Both the position numbers and the translations under genes were made by a program. A stretch of DNA of 64,000 bases from Marinococcus luteus (lineage in GTDB: Bacteria; Bacillota; Bacilli; Bacillales; Marinococcaceae): contig NZ_FNNC01000007.1 in assembly GCF_900106595.1 (NCBI RefSeq), positions 124,001 to 188,000 of the forward strand, written 5' to 3'. The number at the start of each line of letters is the position of its first letter. Within the stretch, counting starts at the first letter, position 1. The notes below the pieces were generated by a model that was given only the letters and a program-made list of their open reading frames with translations, had not been told where the DNA came from and did not search any database. This document shows, in pieces, positions 41,971 to 44,724 of this stretch.

Positions 41971-42843
41971 ATGCATATTGATGAAGTGAAAACTTTTTTG
42001 ACCGTAGTGGAGGAAAAAAATTTCACAAAAGCCTCGGAGGTACTGTCCCTCTCCCAGCCGACTGTAAGCGTGCATATAAAAAACCTTGAAAAGGAATTTC
42101 TTGCTCCGCTGTTTCAGCGGACAACAAAGTCATTGATGCTTACAAGGGAAGGTGAGGTGTTTTTGGATCATGCCCGCCAGTTGATGGGCACCTACGCCCA
42201 TATGAAGGAAGCCTTATATATGATGCACGAGGAAGTGAGTGGAACCATTCATATCGGGGCCAGCTTTACGATTGGGGAATACGTGCTTCCAAAAGTAATG
42301 GCCAGAATGCAGCAGGAGTATGAAGGTATTCAGTTTGAAGTGACGATTGCCAATACAGAAGAAATCATTCAGCTGGTCCGGACGCTGAAAGTCGATATTG
42401 GTCTGGTGGAAGGGCACAGCAGGGCTGCCGATATTACGCTGACACCGTTTCAGACAGATCGTCTGGCAGTAGTAAAGAGTACCTCCGACTCCTTTTCACC
42501 TGTAACCCGGGGGGAACTGCAGGACCAGAAATGGGTGGTGCGCGAAAAGGGATCCGGGACCAGGGAATCGTTTGATTATGTAATGAATGCAAACGGGATT
42601 CGCATACGTTCACTTTTGGTAATCAGCAGCACACAGGGGATTAAAGAAGCTGTTAAAAACGGCCTTGGATTATCTTTGTTATCAGAAGCAGCGATTGAAG
42701 AAGAACAAAAACACAATACGCTCGAGCTTTTATCCATCGAAGGCATCGATGCGAAACGAGTTTTTTCATATGTACTTCCGAAAAGAGCAGAGCGGACAAA
42801 AAATATACAGTTTATGATCGGATGCCTGACAGAGAATCTTTAA
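41971..42843 (+). CDS. LysR family transcriptional regulator
   Basis: A 290-residue LysR regulator: N-terminal winged HTH (MHIDEVKTFLTVVEEKNFTK, then EVLSLSQPTVSVHIKNLEKE) and a C-terminal effector domain starting near residue 90. It resembles the CysL/CbbR/YeiE branch. The divergent 108-base intergenic region with the exporter gene is AT-rich and would contain its binding sites. AGGAGGG before the ATG. It likely senses a sulfur or amino-acid related metabolite, but this is inference. Confidence 0.9.
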   Translation: MHIDEVKTFLTVVEEKNFTKASEVLSLSQPTVSVHIKNLEKEFLAPLFQRTTKSLMLTREGEVFLDHARQLMGTYAHMKEALYMMHEEVSGTIHIGASFTIGEYVLPKVMARMQQEYEGIQFEVTIANTEEIIQLVRTLKVDIGLVEGHSRAADITLTPFQTDRLAVVKSTSDSFSPVTRGELQDQKWVVREKGSGTRESFDYVMNANGIRIRSLLVISSTQGIKEAVKNGLGLSLLSEAAIEEEQKHNTLELLSIEGIDAKRVFSYVLPKRAERTKNIQFMIGCLTENL

Positions 42844-42882
42844 CATTCGGCCAATTCTTTTTCTATAAAAACCAATTTGTTG

Positions 42883-42888
42883 TATACT
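42883..42888 (+). promoter_or_regulatory. Candidate -10 element for the fusB transcript
   Basis: TATACT, 5/6 match to the consensus, with a poor -35. Transcription would start near 42895, about 20 bases before the leader ORF. Confidence 0.4.
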
Positions 42889-42915
42889 AATACCGCGGTC
42901 TCAAGGGAATCACCA

Positions 42916-43002
42916 ATGATGAATTTGTATTCACTGGTGTATAAAGCCTTTTGTTCAATGCCAGGAACAAAAGCTTATTATACTGAAATGAGGAATGGGT
43001 AA
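42916..43002 (+). CDS. 28-codon leader peptide ORF upstream of fusB
   Basis: ATG at 42916 with AAGGGA 7 bases upstream opens 28 codons (MMNLYSLVYKAFCSMPGTKA, then YYTEMRNG). Its TAA stop at 43000-43002 directly abuts the fusB ATG at 43003, and the fusB binding site lies inside its last codons. The arrangement predicts that translation of this peptide controls translation of fusB. Staphylococcal fusB is also reported to have a translational-attenuation leader; the peptide sequence itself is not recognised. Confidence 0.6.
   Translation: MMNLYSLVYKAFCSMPGTKAYYTEMRNG
42948..42973 (+). promoter_or_regulatory. Hairpin within the fusB leader
   Basis: CTTTTGTTC (42948-42956) pairs perfectly with GAACAAAAG (42965-42973) across an 8-base loop. 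A second stem, CACCA (42911-42915) with TGGTG (42935-42939), encloses the leader start codon. Neither is followed by a T-tract, so these are not terminators but fit a translational switch. Confidence 0.5.
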
Positions 43003-43647
43003 ATGATTCAAATTGAACCATTTTTGCGCAATGATCAGTTTAATTTTATTAAAGAGCATGTATGGAAATTCGCTCATGCGCACGCTACAGTAAAAGATGC
43101 CGACGTAATTAGTGCATTAAAACACAGTGTTTTTGATCAAATTATTAACAGCTTTCATTCTATGAATGACGAGCAGGAAAAGCTGTTAGAAAAGGTTCTG
43201 TATGTAGAGGACAGCACTCAGGCAGAGCAGATTCTCGGTGAGTTGAAAATGTATGTTATTCCATTCCCGGCTGTCACCGCAGAACGGATTAAAAAGCTTT
43301 TTCCAAAGGCGAAAAAGCTGACAATTCCGCCGTTGGAAAAAGTGGACCTGAAAAATATATCCTATCTGGGCTGGAATGACATCCGGTCAGAACGAAAATA
43401 TATTATTACTACGGACCAAAGGAGATTGACGGGTGTGTTTGGAACATTTCGGAACACTCCCGGAAAAGGCATCTGTACGATATGCAACAAACAAGAAGAG
43501 ACAGGGCTTTTTATGGCAGTAATAAAGGCTGGAAAAGAAACATATACGAGCCGCGGCAACTATATCTGCCAGGACAGCGGCAGGTGCAATGAAAATATTA
43601 CGGATCTCCGGCAGCTTGAAACATTTATGTACCATCTGAAAAAGTGA
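43003..43647 (+). CDS. fusB: FusB/FusC family EF-G-binding protein (fusidic acid resistance type)
   Basis: A 214-residue protein of the FusB family, which binds elongation factor G and frees it from fusidic-acid-stalled ribosomes. The N-terminal helical bundle (about 1-80) is followed by the C-terminal FBP domain with its zinc site: CTICNKQ near residue 166 and YICQDSGRCN near residue 189. Chromosomal homologues in Bacillales are common and may act in normal ribosome clearance. A leader ORF directly precedes it. GAGG lies 9 bases upstream of the ATG, inside the leader. A strong terminator follows. Confidence 0.9.
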   Translation: MIQIEPFLRNDQFNFIKEHVWKFAHAHATVKDADVISALKHSVFDQIINSFHSMNDEQEKLLEKVLYVEDSTQAEQILGELKMYVIPFPAVTAERIKKLFPKAKKLTIPPLEKVDLKNISYLGWNDIRSERKYIITTDQRRLTGVFGTFRNTPGKGICTICNKQEETGLFMAVIKAGKETYTSRGNYICQDSGRCNENITDLRQLETFMYHLKK

Positions 43648-43655
43648 ATACTATA

Positions 43656-43688
43656 AAAGCCGGGGAAAGAAGCGTTTCCCCGGCTTTT
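43656..43688. terminator. Bidirectional terminator between fusB and the PlcR-like gene
   Basis: AAAAGCCGGGGAAA...TTTCCCCGGCTTTT, perfect 14-base stem. Confidence 0.9.
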
Positions 43689-43693
43689 ATGTA

Positions 43694-44593
43694 TTATTGC
43701 AGTGTATGCAGATGGATGGTCCCGTCTTTTTTATAATCGTCGATTTCCTGGCGGATGTGGTCTGCGAGACCGATTTGTTTCATCGTATCAAACATGGAAC
43801 ACGCCTGATTCCAATCCTGAAGAGCAGGTTCATCAAATCCTAGCACCAGAAGGTTTTGTCCTCTTTGATAAAGCAGTTCCCCTAAAACGTAGCTGTTCTG
43901 CAGATCAATGCAGCGGTCGATTCCCTTTGAACACCAGTCGATGGATTGCTGGTAAGCACCCTGATAGGTCAGCGCTTTGGTTAAAGTATATGTCAGCTTT
44001 AATTCAATGTATTTATTCTCGGGGTGCAACAGGCTCTGATGGTCCTGCAGAGCTTTTCGGCATATGTCCGCGGCTTTCCTGTATTCATGTTCAAGGTTGT
44101 AAATAATCGCCATGGCGTTTATGATTTCACCTTTACGTTCCGTATAAATCCCTTTGTGGTAAGCATCGAGGGCAGAAGAAGCCAGTTCCAGAGCCCGCTC
44201 CGGTTCGTTGTCCAGTTCATAAGCGCAAATAGCTTCATGCCAGAGCATATACTGCTCGTAATAGCCTATTTTGAAAATGGGATTGTCTTCCTCTCTGGAC
44301 AGCAGCTCCCGCATCGAAACGTAATCATGCTCGAACCGGCACGTTTCAAGCATACTGAATACAGAGCGGACGTAATCACTCCGGTCTGTTAACGCTTCTT
44401 CAAAAAAGTAATACATACTGGCTCCGAGCCGTTCAGCAATATAAAACATTGTGCTTGAATACGGAACGATGGTCCCCTTTTCAATCTTACTGATCTGCGC
44501 CTGGGTACAAATGTCTTTAGCGAGCTCTTTTTGTGTGTAGCCCCGGTATTTTCGCAGTTCCTGTATTTTATTTCCAACCCGTGAAAAGTCCAT
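43694..44593 (-). CDS. PlcR-like HTH/TPR transcriptional regulator (RNPP family)
   Basis: A 299-residue regulator. Residues about 6-60 are an XRE-type HTH (IQELRKYRGYTQKELAKDIC, then QAQISKIEKG). The rest is tetratricopeptide helices (for example PERALELASSALDAY, YRKAADICRKALQDH, YQQSIDWCSKGID). Length and layout match PlcR (285 residues), and segments such as ISKIEKG, TKALTYQGAYQQSI and GELLYQRGQNLLVLGF follow PlcR closely from memory. PlcR binds a re-imported pheromone in its TPR groove and then activates target promoters. The ATG at 44593 has GGGAGAG upstream. It is divergent from a gene for a short secreted peptide at 44768, its likely ligand. Confidence 0.85.
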   Translation of the reverse strand: MDFSRVGNKIQELRKYRGYTQKELAKDICTQAQISKIEKGTIVPYSSTMFYIAERLGASMYYFFEEALTDRSDYVRSVFSMLETCRFEHDYVSMRELLSREEDNPIFKIGYYEQYMLWHEAICAYELDNEPERALELASSALDAYHKGIYTERKGEIINAMAIIYNLEHEYRKAADICRKALQDHQSLLHPENKYIELKLTYTLTKALTYQGAYQQSIDWCSKGIDRCIDLQNSYVLGELLYQRGQNLLVLGFDEPALQDWNQACSMFDTMKQIGLADHIRQEIDDYKKDGTIHLHTLQ

Positions 44594-44724
44594 CAATATA
44601 GTTCTCTCCCTGTCTCTCAAATATTCCTATAATTATTTTACGGGAAGAAATCCAGAGAAAAAAGAGGAAAGTCTTAGGAAAATGATCGATTTTGGAGCCA
44701 GAAGCGGAAAACACTCTTTTTATA

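Follow-up and report, generated by a model that had tools for sequence, protein, structure and literature searches.

The window analysed here is a stretch of 64,000 nucleotides of Marinococcus luteus DNA. Within it, a LysR-type regulator gene (41971–42843, plus strand; PF03466 at 9.3e-39 and PF00126 at 1.1e-19) is followed on the same strand, after a gap of 159 nt, by a fusB homologue (43003–43647) that encodes a protein of 214 amino acids. Downstream of fusB, a hairpin scan found a terminator-like hairpin of 17 pairs (43652–43691, plus strand). This hairpin separates fusB from a convergent regulator gene on the minus strand (43694–44620), whose product combines an N-terminal helix-turn-helix with an RNPP-type C-terminal domain.

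Judged by its sequence, the product of 43003–43647 is a homologue of the FusB-family EF-G-binding proteins. It matched PF07299 (1.6e-23, 83.4 bits) and PF16571 (1.4e-11, 44.6 bits), both above their cut-offs, and the EF-G-binding N domain and the FBP C-terminal treble-clef domain are both present. FusB/Far1 chains were the best PDB matches (3e-41), and C158, C161, C189, and C195 align with the cysteines of the FusB chains (CTIC and ICxDSxxC), that is, the four zinc-binding cysteines. The cysteine pairs are 27 residues apart, compared to the 23 printed in the accessible part of PMC3352095. Scores against the NCBIfam exception models (FusD 149 bits, FusF 144, FusB 140, and FusC 117) were far below the cut-offs of 375–450. 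Thus, we treat the protein as a homologue and not as a named resistance protein. The gene was present in all five Marinococcus genomes. Phage and plasmid FusB homologues were also found (8 and 22 records, respectively), every one below 60% identity.

The gap upstream of fusB holds several features, all on the plus strand. The hexamer TATACT (42883–42888) is a putative −10 element of the fusB promoter with a weak −35, and the promoter scan of the window made no call there. The promoter stretch TTTGTTGTATACTAATACCGC shows no variation among the four aligned Marinococcus genomes, and M. halophilus retains TTGTATACTAAT. Next comes a weak SD-like AAGGG (42903–42907) and an ORF of 28 codons that starts at the ATG at 42916 and encodes MMNLYSLVYKAFCSMPGTKAYYTEMRNG (42916–43002); its TAA (43000–43002) is directly joined to the fusB ATG at 43003. 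The translation initiation region of fusB, ACTGAAATGAGGAATGGGTAA (42982–43002), with GAGG as its SD, lies within this ORF. A stem surrounds the start codon of the leader (42911–42939), with an outer part CACCA/TGGTG (42911–42915 with 42935–42939) and an inner part TGAAT/ATTCA (42920–42924 with 42929–42933). A hairpin of GTATAAAGC and CTTTTGTTC against GAACAAAAGCTTATTATAC follows (42939–42983), and inside it is the perfect 9-bp stem CTTTTGTTC/GAACAAAAG (42948–42956 with 42965–42973, loop of 8). The original prediction had described an ORF of this length with its own binding site, a stop joined to fusB, the fusB site inside it, a perfect 9-bp hairpin, and a second stem around the start codon. 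All of this is in the sequence, although the leader's own binding site is weak.

How far these features exceed chance depends on which one is considered. An ATG-started ORF of at least 28 codons appeared in shuffles of the 159-nt gap with P=0.14, and is not beyond chance. An ORF of at least 28 codons with any start and a stop abutting the gene was rarer (P=0.012, 3000 dinucleotide shuffles), and so was a perfect stem of at least 9 bp in the 107-nt leader (P=0.0025, 2000 shuffles).

The comparison of the leader covers five species of Marinococcus, so its power is low, and a functional leader lost twice would look alike. The 28-codon ORF is intact in three of the five genomes (the window, L002, and L003). 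L082 has a nonsense change at codon 4 with the hairpin still intact. M. halophilus (L004) has a shorter leader that lacks the leader body; what it shares with the others is mainly the promoter and the nucleotides immediately ahead of fusB, and it contains no SD-led ORF of at least 6 codons ending at fusB. The original prediction expected the frame and length of the leader to be conserved among relatives, and this is broken in these two genomes. A stop codon directly before fusB is nonetheless found in all five, as TGA joined to ATG in M. halophilus.

Among the four alignable species, the substitution test detected no coding constraint on the leader ORF. The 21 unique leader substitutions were 8 synonymous, 12 non-synonymous, and 1 stop; 5.9–6.7 synonymous ones were expected (P 0.21–0.34), and the three codon positions changed 8, 5, and 8 times. 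fusB itself, unlike the leader, presented a strong third-position bias in the same comparison. Identity among the four species was 84–91% for the leader, 85–94% for the stretch upstream of it, and 90–94% for fusB. Of the last 30 nt before fusB, which are its ribosome-binding region, 29–30 are identical between any two of the four species, and 21 are identical to M. halophilus in an ungapped comparison.

At the RNA level, the perfect 9-bp stem is found in the window only among the aligned Marinococcus. The longer hairpin of 17 pairs had 95.6% of its cells paired across the four species and one compensatory pair, and no covariation beyond shuffles was detected (111 of 500 were as high, four species). 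Considered jointly, both stems had 96.6% of cells paired vs. 36–50% when slid along the alignment. Changes in the hairpin favored the loop (5 of 8 loop sites vs. 6 of 34 stem sites, P=0.02, in a test picked post hoc); the inner stem alone gave P=0.23. The outer start-codon stem is complete in the window only, where it depends on a base unique to it among the four species, and the inner part pairs in all four, often by wobble. Folding energies were ordinary (z of −0.62 for the window, −1.65 for L082, +0.62 for L003, and +0.23 for L002). Rfam gave no match to the window at gathering scores, and positions 42800–43100 had only weak sub-gathering matches to unrelated families.

A different picture appeared when reading upstream of fusB in other genera. 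We found 93 FusB relatives and kept 80 for upstream reading. A short SD-led ORF containing [TS]HAKP or a near variant precedes fusB in Planococcus, Planomicrobium, Sporosarcina, and three Bacillaceae loci. An alignment of these 24 leaders (A1: L005, L009, L010, and 21 of L041–L077) was turned into a covariance model (R1), and a search of 72 further sources with it added 39 loci with the element upstream of fusB. Two of these, L051 and L055, are weak matches immediately ahead of fusB, and the remaining 37 are farther up. These distant elements lie 504–836 nt from fusB (35 of 37 measured), ahead of a small gene. The small gene carried CD3324-like motifs in all 38 loci inspected, L080 included. 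The CD3324 family was matched above its cut-off in the 11 proteins tested, and the one protein tested for it gave a borderline Mor-type helix-turn-helix by Pfam. Altogether, 63 of the 80 FusB relatives have a HAKP element upstream of fusB or of a CD3324-fusB pair. In Halalkalibacter (L080, 4486–4619), the element stands before a CD3324-like gene located downstream, not upstream, of fusB.

In a set of 398 Bacilli genomes, searched with stricter filters that lose weak matches, 93 genomes, from 27 of the 146 genera, carried the element. fusB (PF07299) was present in 157 genomes, and both occurred together in 85 (Fisher P=4e-33, a value that overstates the association because related genomes are not independent). 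At 82 or more of the 107 element places, fusB follows on the same strand within 2.5 kb; at least 39 of these are within 120 nt, at least 40 at 300–800 nt, and at least 3 farther. We inspected 49 loci (30 + 19) from this search. The element and a CD3324 gene, without adjoining fusB, are followed by an alpha/beta hydrolase in six confirmed loci (L110, L111, L112, L117, L120, and L131), by a SpoU-type rRNA methylase in L132, and by a nucleotidyltransferase-domain protein in L141. An rRNA methylase and FusB as alternative cargo would fit a role in translation stress.

The consensus of the element reads CUCAUGCAAAGCC ... GGCGAUACUUUGCAUGGGG ... AUCGCC ... GGCUUUGCACCUUAU ... AAUAAGGRG. Across 99 matches (alignment A4), 99.5% of the cells of the main helix are paired and four of its ten pairs changed on both sides; the covariation was higher than in all 500 shuffles, in an alignment that leans towards model R1. 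The unfitted alignment of 24 leaders gave 99.6% paired cells and two pairs changed on both sides; 4 of 500 shuffles reached its covariation, and it had fewer further pair types than the shuffles. CCUUAU pairs with the SD AUAAGG, and the SD is mostly hidden in 22 of the 24 loci (mean 0.13 unpaired, vs. 0.38–0.61 for the fusB SD in Marinococcus). GGCGA has two possible partners, one within the hairpin and the other UCGCC or a sequence close to it (UCGC in 24/24). Moreover, GGCUUUGCA and UGCAAAGCC are complementary, which suggests that the element has competing pairings built in.

The peptide is conserved as well. An SD-led ORF starts 5–40 codons before the H codon in 90 of the 99 matches –with a loose criterion of an SD-like match of at least four bases–, and in 66 of those 90 the distance is exactly 13 codons. 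The H codon position encodes H in 89 of 99 matches and Y in 7, and at sites where the RNA varies the peptide prefers L, P/S, S/T, and T/S.

An ErmC-like switch was modelled for these loci and set aside. Of 24 equilibrium folds, only that of L062 exposed its SD once the HAKP arm was masked. With a sliding mask over 18 loci, mean SD accessibility rose only where the mask covered the anti-SD, beyond the usual leader stop. Among 12 loci folded as transcripts cut before the SD, L077 alone had its anti-SD paired chiefly with the second arm of the hairpin.

Rfam 15 gave no family match for the element in 15 loci, with four weak matches elsewhere in those loci. In the literature search, which covered titles and abstract openings and had most subscription journals outside its range, no HAKP element or Bacillaceae fusB leader was described. 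The HAKP leader looks like a genuine and apparently undescribed control switch. At somewhat better than even odds, we read it as an undescribed leader that controls the chromosomal ribosome-rescue genes of the FusB type in Bacilli and would be an ancient translation-stress sensor. Its parts would be a translated peptide, with its HAKP codons making up the 5′ arm of a long hairpin, pairings that exclude each other, and a stem masking the SD of fusB or of a CD3324-family gene ahead of it. It would also serve CD3324 operons whose other genes encode an rRNA methylase, a nucleotidyltransferase, or hydrolases, and Marinococcus would have lost it and have its own leader instead.

Several results bear on this loss. 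R1 had no match up to E=10 in any of the five Marinococcus loci (window, L002, L003, L004, and L082), nor at E 0.001 in the whole genome to which the window belongs (G000), where a search run without a positive control found no CD3324 relative. The FusB tree places the five Marinococcus proteins in a single clade (100), nested (98) with L005, L009, and L010, which have the element directly before fusB, and with L086. The tree was built with a quick method, with SH-aLRT as its only support, and left out L047 and L070 (no usable start) and L001, L083, L084, and L085 (duplicates). Given this nesting and the distribution of the element, the simplest reading is that the Marinococcus lineage probably lost the HAKP leader. 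The Marinococcus leader would thus be a later arrangement at the same spot. This goes against its proposal as an ancestral sensing form, since the ancestral-looking leader of its relatives is unrelated in sequence and has no match here. The Marinococcus leader might also be a decayed HAKP element, but local alignments to the closest relatives were inconsistent (z of 4.3 with L009, 1.0 with L005, and 0.8 with L010), and other loci reach z up to 4.8.

L086 belongs to the same family, on a long branch, and lacks the HAKP element. It presents a 12-codon TTG ORF with the SD GGAGG, from about 51 nt to 12 nt before the fusB start, and a CTCTCC that could pair with the fusB SD; this is perhaps yet another leader.

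For the Marinococcus leader itself, our main reading, with a probability of about 0.5, is a lineage-specific 5′UTR of a chromosomal FusB homologue whose ORF is fortuitous or at most weakly coupled to it. Transcription would start at about 42895, from a promoter that appears conserved in the genus, and fusB would be translated from its own GAGG site. Ribosomes terminating at the leader stop might feed the abutting fusB start a little, and a peptide-dependent stall would not be needed for fusB expression. The HAKP leader would have been lost in the lineage, and an unrelated sequence would have taken its place. The abutting stop and the 9-bp stem are rare by chance and count against this reading, as do the stop before fusB in all five genomes, the pairing of both stems across species, the excess of changes in the loop, and the compensatory pair. 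Even so, we find a 5′UTR with an unconserved frame more likely than true translational coupling, in which ribosomes finishing the leader restart at the abutting ATG and provide the main supply of fusB translation. The latter is doubtful but worth considering: the stop joined to ATG, as TAA with the fusB SD within the frame in four genomes and as TGA in the fifth, and a fusB start codon only 0.13–0.34 unpaired in the Marinococcus folds speak for it, but L082 cannot be translated to the end of its leader and M. halophilus has no SD-led ORF of at least 6 codons to end there. In a variant of coupling, the junction between leader and fusB would be a recycling sensor. Fusidic acid blocks EF-G-dependent ribosome recycling, so ribosomes left unrecycled at the TAA would restart with higher frequency, and FusB would rise; according to the accessible part of PMC3352095, both fusidic acid and FusB act in recycling.

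Translational attenuators of the ermC/cat type have a short leader ORF upstream of a resistance gene. Accessible parts of PMC12190993 and PMC9332259 mention this type, and Marinococcus resembles it in having a short leader ORF upstream of a resistance-like gene, whereas an SD-masking switch is not demonstrated here. The original prediction had pointed to staphylococcal plasmid fusB as a precedent for leader-peptide control, and rightly so: for pUB101 fusB, the accessible parts of PMC12008383, PMC3352095, and PMC12493156 report translational attenuation. Both pUB101 (S. aureus, L099) and Marinococcus have a short SD-led ORF upstream of a FusB-family gene and a hairpin overlapping that ORF. However, the pUB101 leader has 20 codons, the SD GGAGG, and a stop 75 nt before fusB, whereas the Marinococcus one has a weak SD, a stop abutting fusB, and an ORF not kept in two of five genomes. 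The peptides share YKx[LF]C, which we treat as chance and not as homology, with Y[KR]xxC found outside Marinococcus only in L099, L009 (in another context), and L013 (with a stop inside) among 97 loci.

A stall-dependent attenuator of the pUB101/ermC type, in which a stalled ribosome opens the hairpin and frees the fusB start, draws on this precedent and on a hairpin in the window that is beyond chance. We hold it to be unlikely: the fusB SD lies outside the hairpin, the favored L003 fold lacks the hairpin, and the ORF is broken or absent in two of five genomes with no coding constraint detected, which also undermines the original claim that this ORF is a translational-attenuation leader. Moreover, no stall position clearly raised SD accessibility when a ribosome was moved along the leader, where the fusB SD stayed about half open throughout, but the test is insensitive: the known pUB101 attenuator, used as a control, was equally flat and also lacked SD release, so the Marinococcus negative carries no weight. 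A transcription attenuator, in which the hairpin is a weak intrinsic terminator controlled by translation of the leader, is very improbable. The hairpin was flagged as terminator-like with the tail CTTATTATAC, but only 3 of its 9 pairs are G-C, and the tail is interrupted and reads CTTACTATAC in the other three aligned species.

The HAKP element and the Marinococcus leader both combine a leader ORF with hairpins ahead of a FusB homologue, and in the nearest FusB relatives the element occupies the same position. They differ in the conserved peptide, the conserved hairpin with compensatory changes, and the SD-masking stem of the former. Thus, the idea of leader control over chromosomal fusB partly holds: it is probably right for the family, given the conserved leader of the relatives, though the Marinococcus ORF is not that leader, nor its ancestral form. 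The accessible part of PMC12493156 states a gap in the knowledge of how FusB homologues are regulated. The Marinococcus leader alone would say little about it; with the HAKP leader, there is something concrete to test in many soil and marine bacteria. Since this leader is conserved in relatives, FusB proteins may be part of an old translation-stress response and not resistance genes by origin.

Finally, the survey returned some unusual copies and records. L113 (G079) is apparently a decaying copy, with a shortened CD3324 gene and a fusB-like remnant, and G283 has an apparently decaying fusB domain with three stops. The FusB of L011, a record that bears the name Pseudomonas sp. ISL-84, clusters with Cytobacillus (support 100), so this contig is probably misnamed Bacillaceae DNA.
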